Shown here in pieces: positions 3,349 to 45,775 of a stretch of DNA of 64,000 nucleotides. Below the pieces are notes generated by a model, which was not told where the DNA came from, did no database searches, and saw nothing but the letters and a program-made list of their open reading frames with translations. The stretch spans positions 868,001 through 932,000 of the forward strand of contig NZ_QYRP01000002.1 of assembly GCF_003600895.1 (NCBI RefSeq). The letters run 5' to 3'. Position 1 is the stretch's first letter. Each line of letters opens with the position of its first letter. This stretch comes from Nocardioides cavernaquae. GTDB taxonomy: Bacteria; Actinomycetota; Actinomycetes; Propionibacteriales; Nocardioidaceae. Position numbers and translations under genes: made by a program.

Positions 3349-4191
3349 ATGACGGTCCCGGCGCTCACGCTCAACGACGGTTCGACGATCCCGCAGCTCG
3401 GGTTCGGCGTCTTCCAGGTCCCGCCCGCGGAGACCGCACGCACGGTTCTCGAGGCTTTCGCGGTGGGTTACCGCCACATCGACACCGCGGAGATGTACGA
3501 GAACGAGGCCGGGGTCGGCGAGGCGATCCGCACCTCGGGCCTCGACCGCGACGAGATCTACGTGACCAGCAAGCTCAGCAATGCATTCCACCGGCCCGAC
3601 GACGCTCGCCGCGCGTTCGACAGGACCCTCAAGGACCTCGGCGTCGACCGGATCGACCTGTTCCTGGTCCACTGGCCGCTCCCCACCCTGTACGACGGGG
3701 ACTACTCCTCCACATGGCGCACGCTGGCCGAGTTCGTCGAGGACGGCCGCGCCCGCAGCATCGGTGTCTCCAACTTCCAGCCCGCGCACCTCGAGCGGAT
3801 CATCGGCGAGACCGGCGTGGTCCCGGCGGTCAACCAGATCGAGGTGCACCCCTACTTCACCAACGAGGGCGCCCGCGCCGCGTCGTACGCACACGGCATC
3901 GTGGTGGAGGCGTGGTCCCCGATCGCACGCGGCCGCGTGGCGGACGAGCCCTCGCTGGTGCGGCTCGGGGAGAAGTACGACAAGTCCGCGGCCCAGGTGA
4001 CGCTGCGCTGGCACATCGAGCGCGGCGACATCGTCTTCCCGAAGTCGATGCACACCCCGCGCATGCGGGAGAACCTCGAGGTCTTCGACTTCAGACTCAC
4101 CCCCGACGAGGTCGAGGAGATCAGTGCGCTGAACGAGGGAGCGAAGGGACGGACGGGTCCTGACCCGGACGTCTTCGACTACGTGCCCTGA
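3349..4191 (+). CDS. Aldo/keto reductase
   Basis: NADPH-dependent aldo/keto reductase of 280 aa, cytosolic (alpha/beta)8 barrel. The catalytic tetrad is visible: Asp45 and Tyr50 (HIDTAEMYENE), Lys75 (TSKLSN), His108 (LVHWPLP). SIGVSNFQ and NQIEVHPY are typical of the 2,5-diketo-gluconate reductase-like branch, and KSMHTPRMREN forms the cofactor phosphate-binding region. I chose the ATG at 3349 because family homology starts there; the open frame extends upstream to 3235 through the dnaK operator. Substrate cannot be told from sequence. It is divergent from dnaK. Confidence 0.92.
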   Translation: MTVPALTLNDGSTIPQLGFGVFQVPPAETARTVLEAFAVGYRHIDTAEMYENEAGVGEAIRTSGLDRDEIYVTSKLSNAFHRPDDARRAFDRTLKDLGVDRIDLFLVHWPLPTLYDGDYSSTWRTLAEFVEDGRARSIGVSNFQPAHLERIIGETGVVPAVNQIEVHPYFTNEGARAASYAHGIVVEAWSPIARGRVADEPSLVRLGEKYDKSAAQVTLRWHIERGDIVFPKSMHTPRMRENLEVFDFRLTPDEVEEISALNEGAKGRTGPDPDVFDYVP

Positions 4192-4210: not shown

Positions 4211-4858
4211 TCACTCGTCGCCGTGCAGGACCATGACCTCGTTGGACTCGAGGCCGGTCTCGGGGTCCTGGACGCGCCAGGCGATCCTGCCCGTCTGGTA
4301 GGTCGCAACGAAGACCTGGAAGACGCCGCCATAGACGTTGACGTCCAGGTTGAACTCCTTCCAGCCCGTGCCGTTGACGTCGTACCAGATGTCGAGGACC
4401 GAGCCCTCGCCCCGCGAGTAGGTGCCGCTGAGCATCAGCTCCTCGCCGGAACCGACCTGCGACGAGCCGGCGCTGAGTCCGATCCTGGCGTCTCGCGGCG
4501 CGGCCGACCCGGTCGGTGAGGACGAAGCGGTGGCCGACGCGGACTCCGTGGCCTCCGTGACAGCGGGGGTCTCGGTGACGGCCGGGGCCAGCGTCACGAG
4601 CAGGCCGGAGTCGAGCTCCGTCGGCTGGAGCGACGGCAGGTAGAGCGAGTCGCCGACGGCGACACCGTCACCGGAGCTGGAGCCACCCGACCCGTCCAGT
4701 CCGAACAGGCGCGTCCCGAGAAGCGCGATGATCGCCGCGAGCAGACCGATCACGAGCCCCACTGCGACGAGCGCAACCAGGCCGTTGGCGACCGGGTTCT
4801 CGTTCTGTTCGTCCACCGCTGCTCGCTCCACGCCTGTCGGGTCCTCGTGCCGGCCCAT
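4211..4858 (-). CDS. Membrane-anchored extracellular protein of unknown function
   Basis: 215-aa protein I do not recognise. A short cytoplasmic N-terminus is followed by one transmembrane helix at about residues 25-50 (LVALVAVGLVIGLLAAIIALLG). A Gly/Ser/Thr/Ala-rich low-complexity linker spans about 55-120. A compact C-terminal domain of about 90 residues follows (LMLSGTYSRGEGSVLDIWYDV...IAWRVQDPETGLESNEV) with beta-rich character, presumably outside the membrane. No enzymatic motif is evident. It is convergent with the aldo/keto reductase and divergent from the next gene. Confidence 0.7.
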   Translation of the reverse strand: MGRHEDPTGVERAAVDEQNENPVANGLVALVAVGLVIGLLAAIIALLGTRLFGLDGSGGSSSGDGVAVGDSLYLPSLQPTELDSGLLVTLAPAVTETPAVTEATESASATASSSPTGSAAPRDARIGLSAGSSQVGSGEELMLSGTYSRGEGSVLDIWYDVNGTGWKEFNLDVNVYGGVFQVFVATYQTGRIAWRVQDPETGLESNEVMVLHGDE

Positions 4859-7783: not shown

Positions 7784-10106
<2,323 letters not shown>

Positions 10107-34485: not shown

Positions 34486-35082
34486 GTGACCGACGAGATC
34501 AGCCAGGGCCAGTTCGCCGACGGGGTGCTGGCCGACGTGCTGCTCGCGATCGCGATGACGATCATCGCGACGACGGTGATCTACCTGGTCTTCGTCGCCC
34601 TGGTCCGGGTGCTGGGCACCCGCACGATGGCGAACCTCTCCACCTTCGACTTCGCCTGCATGGTCGCCGTCGGCGCCGTCGTCGGCCGCACCGCCGTGCT
34701 CGCCAAGCCCAACCTGCTCACCGGCGTGGTCGCCCTGATCACGCTCTTCTGCCTCCAGGGCACGTTCGGCTTCATCCGCGCCCGTGAGCGCGGCAACCGT
34801 TGGGTCAACCCGCGACCGGTCGTCCTGGCCCGCGACGGGGTCGTCGACCACGACGCCCTGCGCCGCGTGCACCTGGTCGAGGATGAGCTGCGCTTCGCCG
34901 TACGCCGCGCAGGCCTGCCCGGCCTGGCTGCCGTCGGCCTGGTGGTGCTGGAGTCGAACGGATCGATCAGCGTGATCCGGGCGGCCCACCGCGAGGCCTG
35001 GCTCGAGGCTGACCTCCCTGGTGCGATCGTCCCCGTTGCCGACGAAACCGCCTCAGACGAGGCCGGTACGCCGCAGGGCTGA
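34486..35082 (+). CDS. DUF421 (YetF-like) membrane protein
   Basis: 198 aa with GTG start at 34486. Three TM helices at the N-terminus (LLAIAMTIIATTVIYLVFVAL; FACMVAVGAVVGRTAVL; GVVALITLFCLQGTFGFI) are followed by the DUF421 cytoplasmic domain (PRPVVLARDGVVDHDALRRVHLVEDELRFAVRRAGLPGLAAV...LESNGSISVI). The RxLGKR-like VRVLGTRTMANLSTFDF motif is present. Function of the family is poorly known. Its 3' end overlaps the convergent cobC by 30 bases. Confidence 0.92.
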   Translation: MTDEISQGQFADGVLADVLLAIAMTIIATTVIYLVFVALVRVLGTRTMANLSTFDFACMVAVGAVVGRTAVLAKPNLLTGVVALITLFCLQGTFGFIRARERGNRWVNPRPVVLARDGVVDHDALRRVHLVEDELRFAVRRAGLPGLAAVGLVVLESNGSISVIRAAHREAWLEADLPGAIVPVADETASDEAGTPQG

Positions 35083-36495
35083 GGTCAGCGCCGCGACGTC
35101 GGTGCTGTCCCGCGCCGCGAAGCGCAACCACTGGTCGTCGAGACCGGGGAACGTGTCGGCCCGTCGCACGGCGACTCCCTGCTCACGGAGCCTGGCGCGG
35201 ATCAGTCGTGCGTCGGGGTGGCGGGCGAGCACGAATGGACCGCGCGGGTCGTCGACGACCGTGAAGCCGTGGGCGCTCAGCGTTGTTGCCATGTCGGCGA
35301 GCTTGCGCGGGAGCTCAGCGCGGACCTCGTCGGCATGGGCGAGGCCGACCGGCGAGAGACAGGTCCGGGCCGCGACCGCAGCGAGCGTGCCGACGGGCCA
35401 GGGGTTCCTTCGGGCAGCGAGGCGGGCGAGCAGGTCGGGGTGGCCGATCAGGTAGCCGATCCGCAGTCCCGCGATCGAGTAGGTCTTGGTGAGGCTGCGC
35501 GCCACCAGGTAGCCCTCGTCGGCGGCCGCACGCCTGGCGAGCGAGTCGACCGGAACGTCGACCGGTTCCACCGCGTCGAGGAACGCTTCGTCCACGAAGA
35601 CCAGGCGGCCGGGGGCGGCCAGCGACTCGATCTCGGAGCGGGGGTGGAGACGGCTCGTCGGGTTCGTCGGGTTGCCGATCACGACCAGGTCCGCGTCACC
35701 TGGGTCGAGGCCGGCCAGCCGGAATCCGCTTGCCTGGTTGAGGATCAGGCGCGCTGGCTCGTGTCCCGCGGCCCGGAGTGCGGCCTCAGGCTCGGTGAAC
35801 TGGGGGTGCACGATCGCCGGGCTGCGCCACGGCTGCTGCGCGACCAGCGTGAATGCCTCCGCCGCTCCGTGGGTGAGCAGCACACTCTCGGGCGCGACAC
35901 CGTGCGCAGCAGCCACCACAGCGGTCGCGGCACGCGGATCCGGGTAGCGCGCCAGGTCCCCGATCGCCTCGCGGAGCGCCTCGGCCAGGAACTCCGGCGG
36001 CTCCTCGCTGTGCACGTTGACCGCGAAGTCGAGCATCCCCCGGGTGACCTCGACATCCCCGTGGTGCCCCAGCTCATATCCGCCGAGACGCCAGGTTTGG
36101 TGTGCCGAGAGGTCAGGTCTGGCGGGCTGAGAGGCCAACAATTGCGCGACCACGACGACCCACCCGTCCGCCTTCACCGGCGAAGCGAGCGGGGTCGCGC
36201 CACAGGCCCGGACCGCGGCCTCGGCGACGCTCGGCGTACCGATGTGGCGGGCGACGGTCGAGCTCGGGTGGTCGACCGGCTGGGTGGCGAGCTCGTCGGC
36301 GGTGAAGTCACGGATCCCGGCCTCGGCGACGACCGCGAGGAGCTGGATGCCGGGGTGGGACGCCCGTGCGTCGATGGTCGCCAGGCACTCGACATCGGTC
36401 AGCGCCAGCCCGTGATCGGCCAGCGCCTTGGCGGCGAGGTCGAGCAGCGCGGACGGCTCCGCCCCCTCGCGCCCGCCGATGCCGAGGACAGTCAT
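35053..36495 (-). CDS. cobC: Fusion: CobE/CbiG-C domain + CobC-like PLP aminotransferase
   Basis: 480 aa. Residues 1-~120 form a CobE/CbiG C-terminal-type domain (MTVLGIGGREGAE, LATIDARASHPGI). From ~140 a class I/II aminotransferase fold appears: LLTHGAAEAFTLVAQ, GNPTNPTSR, VFVDEAFLD, and the PLP-Lys motif ARSLTKTYSIAGLRIGYLIG. Such proteins make (R)-1-amino-2-propanol O-phosphate (threonine-phosphate decarboxylase, CobC/CobD) for the nucleotide loop. Linker residues 121-138 are encoded by an interspersed repeat also present in cobB, cobN and cobG. Overlaps cobB by ATGA. Confidence 0.88.
   Translation of the reverse strand: MTVLGIGGREGAEPSALLDLAAKALADHGLALTDVECLATIDARASHPGIQLLAVVAEAGIRDFTADELATQPVDHPSSTVARHIGTPSVAEAAVRACGATPLASPVKADGWVVVVAQLLASQPARPDLSAHQTWRLGGYELGHHGDVEVTRGMLDFAVNVHSEEPPEFLAEALREAIGDLARYPDPRAATAVVAAAHGVAPESVLLTHGAAEAFTLVAQQPWRSPAIVHPQFTEPEAALRAAGHEPARLILNQASGFRLAGLDPGDADLVVIGNPTNPTSRLHPRSEIESLAAPGRLVFVDEAFLDAVEPVDVPVDSLARRAAADEGYLVARSLTKTYSIAGLRIGYLIGHPDLLARLAARRNPWPVGTLAAVAARTCLSPVGLAHADEVRAELPRKLADMATTLSAHGFTVVDDPRGPFVLARHPDARLIRARLREQGVAVRRADTFPGLDDQWLRFAARDSTDVAALTSALRRTGLV
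36080..36133 (-). repeat. Intragenic ~54-nt repeat, copy in cobC
   Basis: Copy 1 of the B12-gene repeat, read on the minus strand from 36133. It begins CTCTCAGCCCGCC, continues AGACCTGACCTCTCGGC and ends TCTCGGCGG. Aligned by eye without gaps it matches the cobG copy at 46 of 54 positions and the cobB copy at 44 of 54. It encodes residues 121-138 (ASQPARPDLSAHQTWRLG) at the junction between the CobE-like and aminotransferase domains. Confidence 0.9.
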
Positions 36496-37934
36496 GCGGT
36501 GACGCTCGCGGCGTACTCCGTCGCTGCGGCAACCAGGCGCTCCGCGTGCTCCGGGTGCCCGGCCCCGTGCACATGCAGGTACGACGCGTGGACGTTGCCG
36601 CTGACCCAGCCCTCGGTGGCGGGGGTGCCGTCGTGGAGATCCCAGCGCCAGGCCGGGGCGGCCGAGCCGTCGTCGTAGGTGACGGCGGTCTTGTGGAACT
36701 CGTGACCGGTCACTTCCTCACCGGCGCGGACCATCGGGCCATCGACAAGTGCCGTGGCGCGCCGGTAGCCGAGGGTGAGCCGCCTGGTCATCGCGGCGGT
36801 CATCGGGACGACCTCCGCCATCGGCACCCCGTCGAGCGCGCGGCCGAGGTAGAGCAGGCCGGCGCACTCGGCGACGACCGGCCCACCTGCACTGGCGAAG
36901 GCAGCGACATCGGCGAGGAGCTCGGCGTTGGCAGCGAGCGCGTCGAGGTGCATCTCCGGGAAGCCACCGCCGATCACCAGCGCAGACGCGTTGGCGGGCA
37001 GCCGGTCGCCCCGGAGTGGATCAACGGTCACGACCGACGCGTCAGCCGCCGCGATCTGCTCGACGTTCTCGGCGTAGGTGAAGGAGAAGGCCGGGCCACC
37101 GAAGACGGCGACGACCGGGCCACCATTGCTGGCCTCTCGGCCCGCCAAACCTGGCCCCTCGGCGCGCAAGGCCTGGCCTCTCGGCGGGGAGGGAGACCAG
37201 GGATCGGCGTCGAGGTCGGGGGCGGCGGCAGCCAGGGAGAGGAGCAGGTCGAGGTCGACGTGGGCACCGATCAGATCGGCCAGCGCGGAGACGGCGGCGA
37301 CTGCTTCGGGGGTGCGCTCAGCGACCGGGATCAGGCCGAGGTGGCGCGACGGGACGACGATCTCGGGCAGGCGCGGGACGACGCCGAGGATCGGCACGCC
37401 GACGATGGAGGCGCGGACCTCGGCCTCGTGCCGGGGAGAGGCCACGTTGTTGAGGATGACCCCGGCGACACGGACGTCAGCGTCGTACGTGGTGAAGCCG
37501 TGGACGACCGCACCGACCGAGCGGGAGGCGGCGGCGCAGTCGACGACCAGCACCACGGGGGCCGCAACGAGCCGCGCGACGTGGGCAGTCGAGGAGAAGC
37601 CGGAGCCGCCGAGCTGACCGTCGAACAGGCCCATGACGCCCTCGATCACGGCGACATCCGCCAGCGACGGGGTGGAGGCACCGTGCAGCAGCAGCGGCAC
37701 GATCCGCCCCTCGCCCTGGAGCATCGGGTCGAGGTTGCGACCGACCCGCCCTGCGGCCAGGCCGTGATACGAGGGGTCGATGTAGTCGGGCCCGACCTTG
37801 TGCGGCGACACCTTCAGCCCCCGCGCACGCAGCGCGGCCATCAGCCCGGTGGCGATCATCGTCTTGCCGTGGCCACTCCCCGGAGCGGCCACGACAAAGC
37901 GAGGAAGTCGCGTCACCACGCCCTCACCATTCAA
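36492..37934 (-). CDS. cobB: Cobyrinate a,c-diamide synthase (hydrogenobyrinate type)
   Basis: 480 aa glutamine-dependent amidotransferase that amidates the a and c side chains of the corrin ring. N-terminal ATPase domain with P-loop APGSGHGKT (residues 17-25) and KVGPDYIDPSYHGLAAGR. C-terminal class I GATase domain with nucleophile Cys357 (VVAECAGLLYLG). The region between, residues ~249-267, is encoded by a repeat element on the opposite strand. Start ATG at 37934 overlaps cobO by 11 bases; GTG at 37916 is an alternative. Confidence 0.94.
   Translation of the reverse strand: MNGEGVVTRLPRFVVAAPGSGHGKTMIATGLMAALRARGLKVSPHKVGPDYIDPSYHGLAAGRVGRNLDPMLQGEGRIVPLLLHGASTPSLADVAVIEGVMGLFDGQLGGSGFSSTAHVARLVAAPVVLVVDCAAASRSVGAVVHGFTTYDADVRVAGVILNNVASPRHEAEVRASIVGVPILGVVPRLPEIVVPSRHLGLIPVAERTPEAVAAVSALADLIGAHVDLDLLLSLAAAAPDLDADPWSPSPPRGQALRAEGPGLAGREASNGGPVVAVFGGPAFSFTYAENVEQIAAADASVVTVDPLRGDRLPANASALVIGGGFPEMHLDALAANAELLADVAAFASAGGPVVAECAGLLYLGRALDGVPMAEVVPMTAAMTRRLTLGYRRATALVDGPMVRAGEEVTGHEFHKTAVTYDDGSAAPAWRWDLHDGTPATEGWVSGNVHASYLHVHGAGHPEHAERLVAAATEYAASVTA
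37134..37187 (+). repeat. Intragenic ~54-nt repeat, copy in cobB (antisense to gene)
   Basis: Copy 2, on the plus strand, opposite to cobB transcription. Begins CTCTCGGCCCGCC and ends CTCTCGGCGG. Same 54-base length as the others but here read as its complement, giving Pro/Arg/Gly-rich residues ~249-267 (PPRGQALRAEGPGLAGRE) between the ATPase and GATase domains. Confidence 0.85.
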
Positions 37935-38538
37935 TGCCTCGCTGGCCCTTCTGGCCCGCGTCCATCGGATGCTTGATCTTGGTCATCTCGGTGACCAGGT
38001 CGGCCACCTCGATGATCTCGGGTGCGACGTTGCGACCGGTGATGACGACGTGCTGGTGGCCCGGGCGGTTCTTCAGGAAGTCAGCGACCTCCGCCGCGTC
38101 GATCCATCCCCACTTCACCGGGTAGGCGAACTCGTCGAGGATGTAGAGGTCATGCTCCTCCGCCAGCATGCGGCGCTTGATCTCCTCCCAACCGTCGCGC
38201 GCGACCTGGGCGTGGTCCTCGTCCTCGCCCTTCTTGCGCGACCACGACCACCCGTCGCCCATCTTGTTCCACTGGACGGGGCCGCCAGCGCCAGTCTCCT
38301 CGTGCAGCTTGCCGAGGGCGACGTAGGCGGCTTCCTCGCCGACCTTCCACTTCGCCGACTTCACGAACTGGAAGACCGCGACGTTCCAGCCCTGGTTCCA
38401 GCCACGGAGGCCGAGGCCGAAGGCAGCCGTCGACTTCCCCTTGTTCTCACCGGTGTGGACCATCAGCAACGGCCGGTTGCGGCGCTGACGCGTGGTCAGG
38501 CCGTCGTCGGGGACGGTTTCGGGAACTCCCTTTGGCAT
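37924..38538 (-). CDS. cobO: Cob(I)yrinic acid a,c-diamide adenosyltransferase
   Basis: 204 aa CobA/CobO/BtuR family. P-loop-like GENKGKST at residues 30-37, conserved FGLGLRGWNQGW, ILDEFAYPVKWGW, and VVITGRNVAPEIIEVADLVTEM. Transfers the adenosyl group of ATP to reduced cobalt. The C-terminus HPMDAGQKGQRGIEW is the usual family ending. Start ATG overlaps the chelatase stop (TGATG). Confidence 0.96.
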   Translation of the reverse strand: MPKGVPETVPDDGLTTRQRRNRPLLMVHTGENKGKSTAAFGLGLRGWNQGWNVAVFQFVKSAKWKVGEEAAYVALGKLHEETGAGGPVQWNKMGDGWSWSRKKGEDEDHAQVARDGWEEIKRRMLAEEHDLYILDEFAYPVKWGWIDAAEVADFLKNRPGHQHVVITGRNVAPEIIEVADLVTEMTKIKHPMDAGQKGQRGIEW

Positions 38539-40628
38539 CAGGCTGCACCCTTCTTCTCGTTCACGATGTTCTTGAGGGTGGACGCAGCGACCTCGCCGAG
38601 CGGCAGGTGGTCGGCGCCGAGACGGACAGCCAGGTCCTGCGCCAGCCCGAGGCGTACGACGGCGCGCTGGTCCTCGGCGTCGACGACGACCCAGGGGGTG
38701 CCGTGGGTTCCGAGCAGGTCGGCCGTGCGCTGGGCACGGGACAGCGCGCCCTTGCCGGAGGTCGCGCGGCCGTCCGTCACGAGTACGACGAGGGGCCGGC
38801 GCTGCGGGTCGCGCGCGCGTTCGCGGCGTACCACCTGCTCGGCGGCGACAAGTGCCTCGGCCAGCGGCGTGCGGCCACCGGTCGGGACATCGCCGAGCAT
38901 GCGCTCCGCGCGGTCGACGGAGCTGGTCGGCTCGAGCGCGACCGTGGCCTTGTCACCACCGAAGGTCACCACGGCGACCTTGTCGCGGCGCTGGTAGGCG
39001 TCGAGCAGCAGGCTGACCACCGCGGTCTTGATCTCCTTGACCCGGCGGGCGGCGCCCATCGAGCCGGAGGTGTCGACCACGAAGACGACGAGGTTGCCCT
39101 CCTTGCCCTCCTTCAGCGAGCGCCGGAGGTGCTCGGGTCGCAGGCTGACGCCCGGCGTGGACTGGTCCACCGCCGAGGCGAGCAGGGTGCCCGTCACGGA
39201 GAGGCCCTGGCCCTGCGGGTTCTTCAGCGGTACGGCGCGCAGGTGACGGCCGACCGCGGTGATCGCGGTGCTGCGGCGGCCGGTGACCCCCTGCCCGACG
39301 CGGTCGACGGTGAGCAACCGGGCGGCGTACGGGGTGCCGGCGACCTCGCGGGTGCGCTCGGCGGCGTCGTTGCTCAGGTCCGTGCCGCGGTCCTTCGGCT
39401 CGCGGGCTTCGGGGGGCTGCGGGGCGGAGGACTGGGGAGGGTTCTGCGGGAGCTCGACATCTGTTGAGCTGTCCGGAGCCTCGACGGATGTTGAGGTCGC
39501 GGGCGACCCTTCCGGAGAACCCTCATCCCCACCATCGGGGCCACCCTCCGGGCCACCGTCGGGGCCAGCGTCGGGGTCGGTCGGGTCCGGGTCCGGCTCA
39601 TCGTCGGGCGACTCGGGGGCGTGCTCGTCGAGCAGCTCCTCGAGGTCGGCGCCGGAGTCGTGCGAGTCGAACGGGTTGCGCCGGCGGCGGTGCGGGAGCG
39701 CCAGCCGGGCGGCCACACGGACGTCCTCAGCAGTGACCACGGTGCGACCGCACCAGGCCGCGTGGGCGACAGCGGTGCGGGCGGTGACCAGGTCGCCACG
39801 AAGACCGTCGACGTCATAGGCAGCACAGAGGGTCGCGATCTGGAGCAGCACCTCATCCGGCAGCTCGACCGACGGCAGCAGCGTCTGAGCGGCTGAGATC
39901 CGCGCGGCCACATCCGCATCGGCCGGACCGTGCTTGGCGACGAACGCCTCCGGGTCGGCCTCGAACGCCATCCGCGATCGGATCACCTCGACGCGCGACT
40001 CGGGGTCACGCGAGGCAGCAACATCCACGGCCAGCCCGAAGCGGTCCAGCAGCTGCGGACGGAGCTCGCCCTCCTCGGGGTTCATCGTGCCGACGAGCAC
40101 GAAGCGCGCCTCGTGGGTGACCGAGACGGCCTCGCGCTCGACGCGTGCACGGCCCATGGCCGCGGCATCCAGGAGCGAGTCGACCAGGTGGTCGGGCAGC
40201 AGGTTGACCTCGTCGACGTACAGCAGGCCGCGGTGGGCGCGGGCGAGCAGGCCGGGCTCGAAGGCGACCTCGCCGGAGGCGACCAGCTTGTCGAGGTGCA
40301 GCGAGCCGACGACACGGTCCTCGGACGCACCGACCGGCAGCTCCACGAGCGCTACGGGCCGCTCGACGACAACGGAACCGTGGACAGCGACGTCCGGGCA
40401 GGACAGGTCAGGAGCGTCCGGCGCGCAGGAGAACCGGCAGCCGTCGATCACGGAGAGGGGCGGCAGCACCGAGGCCAGGCCCCGGACCATCGTCGACTTC
40501 GCGGTGCCCTTCTCGCCGCGGACCAGCACGCCACCGATGGCGGGGCTCACGACGGCCAGCGAGAGCGCAAGGCCGAGGTCGTCCTGGCCGACGACGGCGG
40601 AGAAGGGGAAGACCGTCGAGTCGCTCAT
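38538..40628 (-). CDS. Fused ChlI/ChlD-type chelatase (AAA + VWA) for cobalt insertion
   Basis: 696 aa. N-terminal AAA+ ChlI-type module with Walker A GEKGTAKST (residues 38-46), Walker B LLYVDEVNLLPDHLVD, and GTMNPEEGELRPQLLDRFG. A ~100-residue acidic/Pro/Gly linker (DEPDPDPTDPDAGPDGG-type) follows. The C-terminal VWA domain has the MIDAS motif DTSGSMG and TDGR. In actinobacterial B12 operons this single protein is thought to replace CobS and CobT beside CobN; that role is inferred from context. Start ATG 40628 overlaps the cobN stop (ATGA). Confidence 0.92.
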   Translation of the reverse strand: MSDSTVFPFSAVVGQDDLGLALSLAVVSPAIGGVLVRGEKGTAKSTMVRGLASVLPPLSVIDGCRFSCAPDAPDLSCPDVAVHGSVVVERPVALVELPVGASEDRVVGSLHLDKLVASGEVAFEPGLLARAHRGLLYVDEVNLLPDHLVDSLLDAAAMGRARVEREAVSVTHEARFVLVGTMNPEEGELRPQLLDRFGLAVDVAASRDPESRVEVIRSRMAFEADPEAFVAKHGPADADVAARISAAQTLLPSVELPDEVLLQIATLCAAYDVDGLRGDLVTARTAVAHAAWCGRTVVTAEDVRVAARLALPHRRRRNPFDSHDSGADLEELLDEHAPESPDDEPDPDPTDPDAGPDGGPEGGPDGGDEGSPEGSPATSTSVEAPDSSTDVELPQNPPQSSAPQPPEAREPKDRGTDLSNDAAERTREVAGTPYAARLLTVDRVGQGVTGRRSTAITAVGRHLRAVPLKNPQGQGLSVTGTLLASAVDQSTPGVSLRPEHLRRSLKEGKEGNLVVFVVDTSGSMGAARRVKEIKTAVVSLLLDAYQRRDKVAVVTFGGDKATVALEPTSSVDRAERMLGDVPTGGRTPLAEALVAAEQVVRRERARDPQRRPLVVLVTDGRATSGKGALSRAQRTADLLGTHGTPWVVVDAEDQRAVVRLGLAQDLAVRLGADHLPLGEVAASTLKNIVNEKKGAA

Positions 40629-43600
40629 GACTGCGACCGACCCTCGATCTCGCCCTCGGTCTCGAGCATGATCTCCGCGAGCGCCTGCTTCATCTCCGCC
40701 GACGGCTGCTCCCACAGGCCACGAGCCTGCGCCTCGAGCAGTCGTTCGGCCATGCCGTGCAGCGCCCAGGGGTTCGCCTCTTCGAGGAACGCACGGTTCT
40801 CCTCATCGAGCACATAGGTCTCGGTGAGCTTCTCGTACATCCAGTCGGCGATGACGCCCGTGGTGGCGTCGTACCCGAAGAGGTAGTCGACGGTCGCGGC
40901 CATCTCGAACGCGCCCTTGTAGCCGTGGCGACGCATCGCCTCGATCCAGCGCGGGTTCACGACACGAGCGCGGAAGACGCGGGACGTCTCCTCGACCAGC
41001 GTGCGGGTGCGGACCGACTCGGGACGGGTCGAGTCACCGATGTACGCCGCGGGGGCCGTGCCCGTGAGCGCACGAACGGTGGCGACCATGCCGCCGTGGT
41101 ACTGGAAGTAGTCGTCCGAGTCGGCGATGTCGTGCTCGCGGGTGTCGGTGTTCTTGGCCGCCACCGCGATGCGCCGGTACGCCGTCTCCATGGCGTCGCG
41201 GGCCGGCTCTCCGTGCAGGTCGCGACCGTAGGCGTAGCCACCCCAGGTCGTGTAGACCTCGGCCAGGTCGGCGTCGGTGCGCCAGTCCTTGGAGTCGATC
41301 AGCTGCAGCAGGCCGGCGCCGTACGTGCCCGGCTTGGAGCCGAAGATCCGGCTGGTGGCGTCACGCTCTCCAACACCCGAGGCGAGGTCGGCCTGGACAT
41401 GGGCCCGGACGTAGTTGTCCTCAGCGCTCTCCTCCGCGGACGAGGCGATGCGGACGGCGTCGTCCAGCATGGAGACGACGTGCGGGAAGGCGTCGCGGAA
41501 GAAGCCGGAGATGCGCATCGTGACGTCGACGCGCGGCCGGCCGAGCTCCTCCAGGGAGATCGCCTCGAGGTGGGTGACGCGACGCGAGGCCTCGTCCCAG
41601 ACAGGGCGAACGCCCAGCAGGGCAAGGCACTCGGCGATGTCGTCACCGGAGGTGCGCATGGCCGACGTGCCCCACATGGAGAGGCCGACCGACTTCGGGT
41701 AGGCGCCGGTGTCGGCCTTGTGGCGCTCGAGGAGCGAGTCGGCCAGCAGCTGGCCGGTCTCCCACGCGAGCTGCGACGGGATCGCCTTCGGGTCGACGGA
41801 GTAGAAGTTGCGACCGGTCGGCAGCACGTTGACCAGGCCACGCAGCGGCGAACCGCTCGGGCCGGCCGGCACGAAGCCACCACGCAGCGCGTTGACGATG
41901 TTGTCCAGCTCGTCCGTGGTCTTGTCCATGCGCGGGGAGACCTCGGCGATGGCGAACTCCAGCACACGCCTGACCTCGACCGCGTCGGAGTCCGCGGGGA
42001 TCAGTTCGAGAGCCTTGTCGATCGCGGAGTCGGACCAGCCGCCCGCGTCAATGGTCGAGATGAGCTCGCGAGCGATCGCCTCGAACTTGTCGGCACCCTT
42101 GCGGTCGCGAGCGTCCTCGTCGAGGCCGAGCGCCTCGCGCAGGCCGACGACGTGGCGGTTGCCGCCCCAGAGCTGGCGGGCCCGCAGCACCGCGAGGACC
42201 AGGTCGATCTTCGGCTCGCCGGCCGGGGCCTGGCCCAGGACGTGCAGGCCGTCGCGGATCTGGGAGTCCTTGATCTCGCAGAGCCAGCCGTCGATCTGCA
42301 TGATGATGTCGTCGAAGCGCTCTTCGTCCGGCTTGTCGATCAGGCCGAGCTCGCGGTCCATCTTCGCCGCCTGGAGCAGCGTCCAGATCTTGCCCTGGAG
42401 CGCCGGCACCTTGGCCGGGTCCATCGTTGCGACGTTGCCGTATTCATCGAGCAGCTGCTCCAGCCGCGAGATGTCGCCGTAGGACTCCGCGCGCGCCATC
42501 GGCGGCACCAGGTGGTCGACGAGCGTGGCGTGCGCGCGGCGCTTGGCCTGCGTGCCCTCGCCCGGGTCGTTGACGAGGAACGGGTAGATCAGCGGCAGGT
42601 CGCCGAGGATCGCGTCAGGCGCGCAGTCGGCGGAGAGACCGGCGTTCTTGCCCGGGGTCCACTCGAGGTTGCCGTGCTTGCCGAGGTGGATGATCGCATC
42701 GGCACCCCAGCCGCCCTCGCTCTCGGGAGCTTCGAGCCAGCGGTAGGCAGCCATGTAGTGGTGGCTCGGCGGCAGGTCGCCGTCGTGGTAGATCGCGATC
42801 GGGTTCTCGCCGAAGCCGCGCGGCGGCTGCACGAGCACGACGATGTTCTGGCTCTGGATGGCAGCGAGGATGATGTCGCCGCCATCCTTGCCCCCGTCCT
42901 TGGCAGCGTCGACGAAGAGGGAGCCCGGTGCCTCGCCCCAGTGCTCGACCATGTCGTCGCGCAGACCGGACGGGACCTTCTCGAACCACTTCTTGTAGGT
43001 GGCCGCAGGCACGCGGTTGGTGTTGGCGTCGAGCTGGCCCTGGGTCAGCCAGTTCTCGTCGTAGCCACCGGCCGCGATCAGCGCGTGGATCAGGGCGTCG
43101 CCGTCCTTCTCCTTGACGCCGGGGAGCTGGTCCGCACCGACCCAGCCCTCGTCCGAGAGCCGCTGCAGCAGCGCCATCGCCGAGGCACCGGTGTCGAGCC
43201 CGACCGCGTTGCCGATGCGGGCGTGCTTGGTCGGGTAGGCCGACAGCACCAGCGCGATGCGGTGGTCCGCAGGATCGATGTGGCGCAGGCGGCCGTGGCC
43301 GATCGCAAGACCGGCGACGCGGAGAGCGCGCTCCGGATCCGCGACGTACGCCGGGAGGCCCTCCTTGTCGAACTCCTTGAAGGAGAACGGCACGGTGATG
43401 ATGCGGCCGTCGAACTCGGGCACGGCGACCTGGGTCGCTGCGTCGAACGGCGAGACGCCCTCGTCGCTCTCCTCCCACGTCGCGCGGGAGGAGGTCAGGC
43501 AGAGCGCCTGCAGGATCGGGCGGTTCAGGTTGGCCAGCGCGCCGGCGTCCCAGGCCTCGTCGTCGCCGCCGGCCTGGGCCTTGGCGGGCGTGGTGCCACC

Positions 43601-44299
43601 GGCCGCGAGCACGGTGGTCACGATGACGTCGGCCTCGGCGAGTGCCTCGAGCAGCGTGGCGTCGGCATCGCGGAGTGACGCACACCAGATCGGGAGGGCG
43701 ACGCCGCCCTTGGCCTCGATCGCGTCGCAGAGCACCTCGACGAACTCGGTGTTCCCGGACATCTGGTGGGCGCGGTAGTAGAGCACCGCCACCTTCGCCG
43801 AATGGTCAAGATTGGTGCGCCCAGAGGTCAGGTTTGGCGCGTCGAGAGGTCGGGCCTGGCGCTCGAGCCGCCCCCACGCCGGCGACGCGGCCGGCGCGTC
43901 GAAGCCCTCGCCGGTCAGCAGCACGGTGTCGGAGAGGAAGCGCGCCAGGTGCGCGAGGTTGGCCGGGCCACCGTGGGCCAGGTAGGCGTGCGCCTGCGCA
44001 GCGACTCCGGCAGGCACGGTCGAGTGGCCCATCAGGTCGGCGTCGGGCGCCTGCTCACCGGTCAGGACGACGACCGGCTTGCCGCTCGCCAGAAGGGCAT
44101 CGAGGCCCTCGGCCCAGGCCTGGCGGCCACCGAGCAGGCGTACGACGACGAGCTCGGCGCCGTCGAGCAGATCGGGAAGGTCCGCCAGCGCGAGCCGCGC
44201 AGGGTTGGAGTAGCGCCACTCGACAGTGCCTTCGTCGGTGACGTTGGCAGCGCGGGCGCTCATCAGGTCCGTGTCGGAAGTCGACAGGAGCAGCAGCAC
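40625..44299 (-). CDS. cobN: Cobaltochelatase large subunit CobN
   Basis: 1224 aa, normal CobN length. Inserts cobalt into hydrogenobyrinic a,c-diamide with the ChlI/D-type ATPase downstream. Family blocks: LYYRAHQMSGNTEFVEVLC, VLSAYPTKHARIGNAVGLDTGASAM (motif SAYPTKHARIGNAVGLDT), HLGKHGNLEWTPGKN, GLSMWGTSAMRTSGDDIAE, RHGYKGAFEMAATVDYLFGYDATT. Start GTG at 44297-44299 is preceded by GGAAGAGG. Residues 151-168 are encoded by a repeat element. First gene behind the second cobalamin riboswitch. Confidence 0.96.
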   Translation of the reverse strand: MLLLLSTSDTDLMSARAANVTDEGTVEWRYSNPARLALADLPDLLDGAELVVVRLLGGRQAWAEGLDALLASGKPVVVLTGEQAPDADLMGHSTVPAGVAAQAHAYLAHGGPANLAHLARFLSDTVLLTGEGFDAPAASPAWGRLERQARPLDAPNLTSGRTNLDHSAKVAVLYYRAHQMSGNTEFVEVLCDAIEAKGGVALPIWCASLRDADATLLEALAEADVIVTTVLAAGGTTPAKAQAGGDDEAWDAGALANLNRPILQALCLTSSRATWEESDEGVSPFDAATQVAVPEFDGRIITVPFSFKEFDKEGLPAYVADPERALRVAGLAIGHGRLRHIDPADHRIALVLSAYPTKHARIGNAVGLDTGASAMALLQRLSDEGWVGADQLPGVKEKDGDALIHALIAAGGYDENWLTQGQLDANTNRVPAATYKKWFEKVPSGLRDDMVEHWGEAPGSLFVDAAKDGGKDGGDIILAAIQSQNIVVLVQPPRGFGENPIAIYHDGDLPPSHHYMAAYRWLEAPESEGGWGADAIIHLGKHGNLEWTPGKNAGLSADCAPDAILGDLPLIYPFLVNDPGEGTQAKRRAHATLVDHLVPPMARAESYGDISRLEQLLDEYGNVATMDPAKVPALQGKIWTLLQAAKMDRELGLIDKPDEERFDDIIMQIDGWLCEIKDSQIRDGLHVLGQAPAGEPKIDLVLAVLRARQLWGGNRHVVGLREALGLDEDARDRKGADKFEAIARELISTIDAGGWSDSAIDKALELIPADSDAVEVRRVLEFAIAEVSPRMDKTTDELDNIVNALRGGFVPAGPSGSPLRGLVNVLPTGRNFYSVDPKAIPSQLAWETGQLLADSLLERHKADTGAYPKSVGLSMWGTSAMRTSGDDIAECLALLGVRPVWDEASRRVTHLEAISLEELGRPRVDVTMRISGFFRDAFPHVVSMLDDAVRIASSAEESAEDNYVRAHVQADLASGVGERDATSRIFGSKPGTYGAGLLQLIDSKDWRTDADLAEVYTTWGGYAYGRDLHGEPARDAMETAYRRIAVAAKNTDTREHDIADSDDYFQYHGGMVATVRALTGTAPAAYIGDSTRPESVRTRTLVEETSRVFRARVVNPRWIEAMRRHGYKGAFEMAATVDYLFGYDATTGVIADWMYEKLTETYVLDEENRAFLEEANPWALHGMAERLLEAQARGLWEQPSAEMKQALAEIMLETEGEIEGRSQS
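43795..43848 (-). repeat. Intragenic ~54-nt repeat, copy in cobN
   Basis: Copy 3, minus strand from 43848. Begins CTCTCGACGCGCC and ends CCATTCGGCGA. Matches the cobG copy at 49 of 54 positions (aligned by eye). Encodes residues 151-168 (PLDAPNLTSGRTNLDHSA), between the N-terminal ~140-residue domain of CobN and its main body. Confidence 0.9.
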
Positions 44300-44345
44300 G
44301 GGAATCCTCTTCCTGGGGTGTCCTCGCCCCGGGTTCAGGGTTTTG

Positions 44346-44460
44346 GGTGACGGGAGTTCCTGACTCGGCCGCGTTGCTCACGCGGCGTACACAGTGGCGG
44401 GACCGTGCCGGAATCACACCGGCTTCCTCCGCGTGTCACCTTCAACTTCGGGCGGGCACC
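44346..44460 (-). promoter_or_regulatory. Cobalamin riboswitch controlling the cobN operon
   Basis: On the minus strand: GAAGCCGGTGTGATTCCGGC, then GGTCCCGCCACTGT, a hairpin ACGCCGCGTGAGCAACGCGG, and the B12 box GAGTCAGGAACTC (44353-44365). This is the standard cobalamin riboswitch order, compact form. About 50 bases separate it from the cobN GTG. It should repress cobN, chelatase, cobO, cobB and cobC when B12 is plentiful. It does not face the divergent cobG. Confidence 0.95.
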
Positions 44461-44593
44461 CGGACGGGCGCACGCCCGACGAGCATAAACCGGGCGCGGG
44501 CGGGCCTCAGACCGTCACCAGATGGCAGTCGCTCCGCCCCCGCGTACCAGCGCTGCTGCAGGCTGAGCGCGGCCCGCGCCCGAGGACGTAGCC

Positions 44594-45775
44594 TTGTCGA
44601 TCGTGATCCCCTCCCCTGACCGCCCGAGCAGCGACGACAGCTGCCCCGGTGCCGTGCGCCTCCACGCCGCCGACGACGGGTACGTCGCGCGGGTGCGCAT
44701 CCCGGGTGGGCGGGTTTCGCCGGCGCAGCTGGTTGCGCTGGCTGATCTCGCGGAGTCCGCGGGCGACGGACACCTCTACCTGACCTCACGCGGCAACGTG
44801 CAGCTGCGCGGGCTCGGCTCCGGGTGTGGCCAGGACGTCGCCGATGCCCTGTACGCCGCGGGCCTGTTGCCGTCGGTCAGCCACGACCGCGTGCGCAACG
44901 TCGTCGCCTCGCCGCTGTCCGGAGTGGTCGGACCCGACATCGAGAGCTTGCTCTCCGAGCTCGATGCAGCGCTCCTCGAGGACGAAGCACTGGTTGCCCT
45001 GTCGGGGCGCTTCTTGTTCGGCATCGACAACGGGACAGGCGATGTCCTGGCGCTGAAGCCCGACGTTGCCGTCATCGTCGAGGCGGGCGACACGGTCCGC
45101 CTCGCCATCGCAGGCCAGCCCACGGCCGTTGCCGCCCCGACCGATCTGGCCGTTGACCTGCTGATAGGCGCCGCCCACCGGTTCCTCGCGCTCCGTGCCG
45201 AGCACGGCCCGACAGCCTGGCGGGTCAGCGACCTTCCGGATGCTGCGCTGGTGGAGTTGGCTCCGGGGCGCCCCGGTCCAACTCTCGGCGCGCCAGACCT
45301 GACCTCTGGGCACACCAATCTTGACCTTTCGGCGGGGGAGGCGGCGGGGCTGGGCAATCACGGGTCCACGGTCGTCGCGGGGGTTCTCCTCGGCAGCGCA
45401 CCGGCAGAGGCCTGGCGCGCGATCGCGGCTCTCGTCCCCGCGGACGCGGCCGGCGCGATCCGGCTGACGCCGTGGCGTTCGGTCGTCCTGATCGGCCCGA
45501 CCCCGGACGCCATCGACGTCCTCGCGTCGCACGGATTCCTGCTCGACGACGCCGACCCGCTCGCCCCGGTCACCGCCTGCATCGGCCGGCCCGGCTGCGG
45601 CAAGGCGCTGGCCGACGTACGCACCGACGCCCTCACCCTGGCCACAGATCCGACGTTGGCCACCCCGGGCGCGCGCCTCCACGTCTCCGGCTGCGACCGC
45701 CGCTGCGGCCACCCGACCGGACCCCACCTCTCGGCCGTCGCCACCGGTGACGGCTACCAGATCCAGGAGCTGTGA
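44594..45775 (+). CDS. cobG: Precorrin-3B synthase CobG
   Basis: 393 aa sulfite-reductase-like enzyme that uses O2 to make precorrin-3B, a step of the aerobic pathway. Two ferredoxin-like/SiR halves: GGRVSPAQLVALADLA and YLTSRGNVQLRGL near the N-terminus, and the Fe-S Cys set CIGRPGCGKALADVRTDAL with VSGCDRRCGHP near the C-terminus. Start TTG at 44594 has GAGGA 7 bases upstream; GTG at 44603 is an alternative. Residues ~230-247 are encoded by a repeat element. Overlaps cobH (TGATG). Confidence 0.93.
   Translation: MSIVIPSPDRPSSDDSCPGAVRLHAADDGYVARVRIPGGRVSPAQLVALADLAESAGDGHLYLTSRGNVQLRGLGSGCGQDVADALYAAGLLPSVSHDRVRNVVASPLSGVVGPDIESLLSELDAALLEDEALVALSGRFLFGIDNGTGDVLALKPDVAVIVEAGDTVRLAIAGQPTAVAAPTDLAVDLLIGAAHRFLALRAEHGPTAWRVSDLPDAALVELAPGRPGPTLGAPDLTSGHTNLDLSAGEAAGLGNHGSTVVAGVLLGSAPAEAWRAIAALVPADAAGAIRLTPWRSVVLIGPTPDAIDVLASHGFLLDDADPLAPVTACIGRPGCGKALADVRTDALTLATDPTLATPGARLHVSGCDRRCGHPTGPHLSAVATGDGYQIQEL
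45282..45335 (+). repeat. Intragenic ~54-nt repeat, copy in cobG
   Basis: Copy 4. Unit structure is clearest here: CTCTCGGCGCGCC-AGACCTGAC, then CTCTGGGCACACC-AATCTTGAC, then the partial CTTTCGGCGG, so 2.45 copies of a 22-nt unit. Encodes residues ~230-247 (LGAPDLTSGHTNLDLSA) between the two repeats of the SiR-like fold. Confidence 0.9.

Follow-up and report, generated by a model that had tools for sequence, protein, structure and literature searches.

Tandem-repeat inserts in the B12 genes of Nocardioides cavernaquae as a probable family of a dispersed array and nuclease system

The 64,000-nt stretch of the Nocardioides cavernaquae genome analyzed here (positions 868,001 to 932,000 of contig NZ_QYRP01000002.1, hereafter the window) harbors four copies of a short tandem repeat, each of which lies within a gene for vitamin B12 biosynthesis. 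These inserts probably belong (we would put the probability at roughly 0.68) to one family of a Nocardioides repeat-plus-enzyme system, dispersed by a nuclease that joins an AbiEi-like to a Vsr-like half. The association of families of such repeats, arranged as arrays of 21- or 22-nt units, with genes for this nuclease is well supported, and we infer that the nuclease moves the arrays. The best reading of the whole is a system resembling REPIN/RAYT, in which doublets of repetitive extragenic palindromes (REP) accompany a REP-associated tyrosine transposase (PMC3116915), but with an unrelated enzyme. The link to the nuclease is invisible from the window alone, since the nuclease gene of this genome lies outside it.

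The original prediction, a reading of the window made without database searches, described four 54-nt copies, all of which are present at the positions and in the orientations that it gave. Their high similarity stands, but ungapped pairs agree at 40, 41, 41, 44, 46 and 49 of 54 positions, a wider range than the approximately 44 to 49 first estimated; the best match of any copy in the reversed window is 31-32 of 54. The repeating element, in the phase used here, is the 22-nt unit CCANNNNTGACNNNTCGGCNNN, and each copy comprises approximately three such units, or 66 nt and 22 codons, which corrects the earlier figure of 2.45. With up to three mismatches, this unit has five matches in the window, all within the four copies, and none in 100 shuffles. 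In cobC, which encodes an Rv2231c-type aminotransferase with a CbiG-like N-terminal part (35053..36495, -; PRK07908, 417 bits), three units at 36079..36144 (-) are read in sense in phase 0; three more at 37123..37188 (+) are read antisense in cobB, the gene for cobyrinic acid a,c-diamide synthase (36492..37934, -; start codon uncertain, 37859 in an alternative gene call). The cobaltochelatase subunit gene cobN (40625..44299, -; TIGR02257, 1109 bits) has three units at 43794..43859 (-), read in sense, and cobG, encoding precorrin-3B synthase (44594..45775, +; TIGR02435, 233.5 bits with a cut-off of 234.8; start codon uncertain, placed at 44654 by the alternative call), has two clear units and a diverged one at 45271..45336 (+), also read in sense. 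Frame analysis of the called genes agrees with the original statement that reading phase and sense differ among the four hosts. The inner unit is the most diverged, with mean profile scores of 26.0, 25.9, 21.5 and 19.1 from the outer end inward. The copies form two close inverted pairs, cobC/cobB and cobN/cobG, so that they may represent fewer than four independent insertion events.

Confinement of the repeat to B12 genes holds within the window, bar a lone weak unit-like match at 4479-4500 (+; score 14.2 in a looser profile scan), but not in the genome (3.467 Mb, 2 contigs), over which a search with the repeat revealed a dispersed family. Thirty-eight places lie within three mismatches of the unit, against none for the reversed pattern, and a 66-position sequence model built from 32 copies has at least 89 matches at E <= 10 among the best 150 of 2482 candidates scored. 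A profile scan covering the window and 35 stretches around model matches (E up to ~0.006) identified at least 56 arrays of two or more units, plus 5 single units; 397 kb of reversed sequence gave none. Forty-one of the 56 arrays are intergenic and 15 lie inside called genes, four of these being the B12 genes. The intragenic copies are single direct-repeat arrays of 44-88 nt, distributed over 15 genes and all three phases, nine of them in sense and six antisense. Units are contiguous and devoid of unique spacers, which rules out an array of clustered regularly interspaced short palindromic repeats (CRISPR). One array, at G000:C2:767591-767788, has nine units of which eight are identical, which suggests recent tandem growth. 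Neighbors within 2.5 kb are oriented '-+' in 11 cases and '++' in three, and never '+-' or '--', while controls in which array positions were jittered by 100 kb and orientations randomized produced a mean of 0.95 '-+' pairs and a maximum of 4. The halves of such close pairs, those in the cob genes included, stand 0.2-2.2 kb apart with host DNA between them, in most cases comprising host genes. Four of ten pair spans without a nuclease (1109, 1110, 1199 and 1253 bp) fall in the size range of full nuclease units; the agreement may be due to chance or to gene length, or it may be a trace left by paired-end action.

The nuclease gene of this genome (G000:C2:1243840-1244796) is bracketed by arrays at 1243686 (-) and 1244798 (+), and a gene of the same protein family is bracketed by one array pair in genome G068. 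A tblastn search over the loci in hand found relatives beside arrays in three more genomes, and a weaker relative (locus L200) that is not beside arrays; in all five cases arrays recognized by period or profile occupy both flanks, one of the five having period 21. The protein, of approximately 310 residues, consists of an AbiEi-like half, a winged-helix region predicted to bind DNA, and a half similar to the Vsr and I-Bth0305I endonucleases that has a Vsr-like, PD-(D/E)XK fold with its invariant acidic residues present. For the five proteins Pfam returns weak matches to AbiEi_1/AbiEi_4, DUF559 and MTES_1575, some above and some below the curated cut-offs. Relatives carry the database names 'type IV toxin-antitoxin system AbiEi family antitoxin domain-containing protein' or 'DUF559 domain-containing protein'. 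At E <= 1e-30, 180 of 215 Nocardioides genomes match a profile built from the five nucleases; 1715 relatives were found at E <= 1e-20 among 7998 candidates scored.

Arrays around these genes were sought by periodicity, employing no repeat sequence, as the period between 15 and 30 with the highest self-identity in 420 nt on each side (cut 0.72). The 70 high-scoring loci tested, 30 returned by the search and 40 picked down the list, include four that had served to form the idea (those of the window's genome, Nocardioides limicola (G054), G068 and G156). Periodicity reached the cut on 108 of 140 sides, 44 with period 21, 64 with period 22 and none with any other, compared with 0 of 140 dinucleotide-shuffled sides; 63 loci have at least one periodic side, and the 45 with two always show the same period on both. 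At 0.69, 52 loci have both arrays, in inverted orientation in 50 and direct in 2, and 48 of the spans measure 1084-1261 bp. A further 20 nuclease loci, for which periods 21 and 22 alone were considered, all have a period-22 array at 0.67 or above. In the full set of 89 loci (one cut-off locus was dropped), one array or more is present at 82 and both are present at 62, at 0.70. The core locus, mostly ~1.1-1.3 kb, is an array of 21- or 22-nt sites, one gene, and a second, inverted array. Lower-scoring relatives have any array in only 5 of 20 cases, and their nine periodic sides have periods of 22 (five), 26 (two), 15 and 18. A more distant relative in G118 is bracketed by inverted arrays of 26-nt units (L296, 1200-1367 and 2408-2599). 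Within the 89 loci, right arrays more often show TCG repeated at the array period (55 of 75, compared with 38 for CGA), and left arrays more often CGA (64 of 77, compared with 43 for TCG); judging from these motifs, a core and polarity shared across array families are possible.

The repeat varies in sequence between species while its period remains constant at 21 or 22. Matches to the model from the window's genome occur at E <= 1e-3 in 58 of the 215 genomes, and ten loci were opened in eight of them, several having been picked for close opposite matches: eight show '-' arrays followed by '+' arrays, separated by a short centre in seven loci and by 1 kb in one, and two show '-' arrays alone. 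Dispersed arrays were then compared with the nuclease arrays of 20 genomes. Mean similarity was 0.485 within a genome and 0.238 to other genomes, and the own genome ranked first for 33 of 50 arrays; several failures arose because a further nuclease of that genome had not yet been included. Once further nucleases were added and the cut for nuclease arrays was lowered from 0.70 to 0.67, the own genome came first among 29 for 39 of 52 arrays and within the top three for 46, and the period agreed for 49; the 52 are not independent, as 13 come from one genome and most were found with the model from the window's genome. The cobG and cobB arrays of N. limicola match its third nuclease at 1.0 and 0.79, compared with 0.62 and 0.61 for the closest other genome, and a 21-nt array in one of its cobaltochelatase genes matches its own 21-nt nuclease at 0.68 versus 0.38. 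For arrays of G051 and G208, and for one of G061, the match is to a second nuclease of their own genome. Array similarity also increases with nuclease-protein similarity, with Mantel r of 0.40 for the whole protein, 0.41 for approximately residues 1-80, 0.38 for 81-185 and 0.29 for the nuclease part (0 of 999 permutations in each test).

Orthologs of the four Cob proteins were aligned, relatives including Nocardioides phosphati (G119), Nocardioides jejuensis (G097) and N. limicola among the nearest genomes, as well as G099 and G205, and close relatives either lack the insert or have another sequence in the linker. The CobN insert is absent, at a cost of 13 residues, from N. phosphati and N. 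jejuensis and, at 12-13, from two distant species, and is replaced in G099, G205 and N. limicola; that of CobC (19-20 residues) is missing from G205 and N. limicola and differs in sequence in N. phosphati and G099; 14 residues of CobB, whose linker is variable among relatives, are absent in N. phosphati, and 17 of CobG in G205. In the same linkers, N. jejuensis CobC has a 22-nt array that differs in sequence but occupies the same site in the same orientation, and N. limicola CobG has four 22-nt units of yet another sequence, while the next cobaltochelatase gene of N. limicola (L154, 6598-6722) carries the 21-nt array of a third family. In the G205 cob locus (L153) a different inverted repeat occurs in the CobN linker and once more ~4.3 kb away (4035-4087 and 8338-8433). 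The original placement at domain junctions survives insofar as protein alignments put all four inserts in linkers variable in length and sequence between species; that picture arose because different families in different species landed in the same CobC and CobG linkers. The accompanying proposal of a mobile or spreading element tolerated in loops fits the dispersal, the conservation of DNA while peptides differ, and the loss or replacement of the insert in close relatives, but nothing in it is special to B12 genes.

Outside the cob genes, seven array sites were compared with N. phosphati, N. jejuensis and G099. The array at 1398944 is absent from all three; that at 1883842 is absent from N. 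phosphati and G099, and at this site N. jejuensis carries a 22-nt array with a sequence of its own; at 1403061, N. jejuensis has 23 bases versus 80, and N. phosphati and G099 have ~670 other bases; the remaining four are variable or not alignable in every species. Empty sites were compared at 69-86% flank identity, at which boundaries are too inexact to read a target duplication. Different states also exist at orthologous loci. Between an M16 peptidase gene and a methyltransferase gene, G068 has array, nuclease and array, N. limicola has approximately five units alone, beginning at the stop codon, and the window's genome has other sequence in a diverged period-22 stretch (self-identity 0.76). 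A second locus holds the nuclease in L220, L225, L233, L235, L237, L240, L242 and L245 and arrays only in G031; at a third, the nuclease is present in L238, L253 and L257, and G159 has arrays alone (three nuclease-bearing sequences were opened at each). Gene loss would be the simpler reading of the arrays-only state.

These observations suggest, with a better than even chance, a class of selfish DNA in which an AbiEi-type/homing-endonuclease-like fusion recognizes tandem 21/22-bp arrays and spreads them as non-autonomous units, with one array family per nuclease, several families per genome, and independent landings in the same B12-enzyme linkers of different species. The AbiEi-like half would bind the 21/22-bp sites, whose length corresponds to two helical turns, so that bound copies would be aligned on one face of the DNA; the nuclease would cut arrays and targets, or the DNA close to them, and arrays would be copied to new places by repair or strand transfer. 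Surviving arrays would mostly be those beside stop codons, and 33 of the 41 intergenic arrays do lie within 30 nt of one, the TGA of the first unit serving at several sites as the stop codon of the preceding gene; this proximity may reflect site preference or purifying selection. Within genes, survival would call for ~66 nt, or 22 codons, free of stops in the frame used, in a tolerant linker. The nuclease gene is low-copy and often in shared contexts, while arrays are numerous and turn over; arrays would spread as the gene mostly stays put and diverges. RAYT genes likewise mostly stay in place and diverge.

Several results weigh against dispersal by the nuclease. Seven of the 70 nuclease loci have no array side at 0.72, and the flanks tested in five distant, plasmid-borne relatives from other genera contain no 21/22-nt array. 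For 13 of the 52 dispersed arrays, another genome ranks above their own (two of G152 at ranks 24 and 29, one each of G062, G061 and G159 at ranks 6, 5 and 3, two of G049 at rank 4, and six at rank 2), and array-like repeats persist in N. phosphati and G099, which lack a match of the main nuclease subfamily. Nuclease copies within a genome are 38-60% identical (31 pairs) and none is near-identical, so that whole units have not moved recently. Grouped by context, the 70 loci form only 20 clusters, the largest with 20 loci, which indicates much vertical inheritance. The loci compared showed no transposition event, target duplication or excision product, and the binding and cutting of arrays by the nuclease are functions predicted from its sequence.

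The most serious alternative, though an unlikely one, holds that the arrays are operators by which the AbiEi-like gene regulates itself, and that dispersed copies form a regulon or chromosome-organizing sites without being mobilized by the nuclease. AbiEi proteins autoregulate via 23-bp repeats (PMC7319586), and the arrays flank the nuclease gene on both sides; an organizing role would suit the strict '-+' order of close inverted pairs (11 versus 0 '+-') and the presence of 46 of 56 arrays (34 of 42 clusters) in the chromosome half around dnaA (at 1190807). Against operators, few intergenic arrays (6 of 41) come within 30 nt of a start codon, compared with the 33 near a stop; sites turn over, as five relatives contain 30 array-like places, counting weak ones, of which 21 have no array nearby in the window's genome, whose own sites are empty in relatives; and copies in linkers of unrelated protein genes are poorly explained. 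A defence or self/non-self system, in which the nuclease attacks incoming DNA and chromosomal arrays mark or titrate it, is improbable. AbiEi-like and Vsr-like domains are both found in conflict systems, and PADLOC AbiEi models do match the N-terminal half; the MTES_1575 Vsr-like domain is described in PMC3710099. But the bracketed unit has space for one gene only, no relative was found in phage records or viral contigs, and inverted ends, fixed span and linker insertions are unaccounted for. Still less probable is a function in RNA, with arrays as locally duplicated terminators or Rho-loading sites at gene ends, for which speak the abundance near stop codons, the 16 of 41 intergenic arrays between convergent genes, and inverted pairs in other species that could fold as hairpins; arrays between tandem genes, however, are co-oriented in 11 cases and anti-oriented in 11, so that no RNA strand is preferred, no clear compensatory pairing was found within units (a single position pair, in other species, reached the best z of 2.9), and 15 arrays are intragenic. 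That the copies are conserved linker sequence normal to each Cob protein, or repeats arisen by chance in GC-rich DNA, can practically be discarded, for although all four sit in linkers, the same DNA is used in different phases and in antisense, it is missing or replaced in relatives, and the controls gave no matches.

The favored reading, dispersal by a resident nuclease, recalls REPIN/RAYT in its short, mostly extragenic repeats, in the coexistence of inverted doublets and singlets, and in the tie of each family to an enzyme gene flanked by the same repeats. RAYT enzymes exist as few, non-identical copies per genome, as does the Nocardioides nuclease, and a REP repeat is a short palindrome with a tetranucleotide tag. 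The Nocardioides system differs in that its halves are tandem direct-repeat arrays with no single palindrome, in that 15 of 56 are intragenic, and in its AbiEi-Vsr-like enzyme, which is no Y1/HUH transposase; the REP transposase (PF01797) was detected in 1 of the 215 genomes, and not in the window's genome. Behavior of the kind known for Rickettsia palindromic elements (RPEs), as originally envisaged, did not hold up. For RPEs we know of no cognate enzyme. They are described, in PMC10969869, as ~150-bp palindromic elements of ten families; they too create new peptide segments as in-frame inserts in unrelated protein genes, but the Nocardioides arrays are mostly intergenic direct repeats, usually 44-88 nt, whose families are tied to a cognate nuclease locus. 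Arrays-only units with inverted ends, alongside full-length gene-bearing units that share them, evoke miniature inverted-repeat transposable elements (MITEs), with the difference that the ends are tandem arrays; a MITE of a DDE transposon was rejected, since the gene in five scanned units is AbiEi plus DUF559/MTES_1575-like and no DDE transposase. The N-terminal half resembles the AbiEi antitoxin of AbiE systems (6y8q), with sites of 23 bp there (PMC7319586) and 21/22 bp here, but differs in its fusion to a nuclease and in the arrays, which stand on both sides and are dispersed; there is no room for an AbiEii (DUF1814) partner inside the bracketed unit, neighbors outside it not having been searched. 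Archaeal Borg elements reportedly contain fast-evolving tandem repeats that also add segments to proteins, but they are extrachromosomal and archaeal (a link to an AbiEi-Vsr-like nuclease was not looked for). I-Bth0305I is a Vsr-like homing endonuclease, a phage intron enzyme, for which we know of no tandem arrays.

A literature search, which left most subscription papers outside its scope, returned no work that joins DUF559 with AbiEi, and none whose title or opening lines of the abstract describe an array and nuclease system; on this basis it is apparently undescribed as a system, although analogous to REPIN/RAYT. To our knowledge, REPIN/RAYT stands alone among well-described bacterial systems in tying tiny repeats one-to-one to a resident enzyme. 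If the present reading is true, a second, unrelated enzyme would mean that the repeat-plus-enzyme lifestyle evolved more than once, and a function would be at hand for many proteins named just 'DUF559' or 'AbiEi family antitoxin domain-containing'. It would also explain the species-specific inserts in Nocardioides proteins, and the natural pairs of DNA-binding domain and target array, present at 82 of 89 loci with at least one array, could yield a recognition code.

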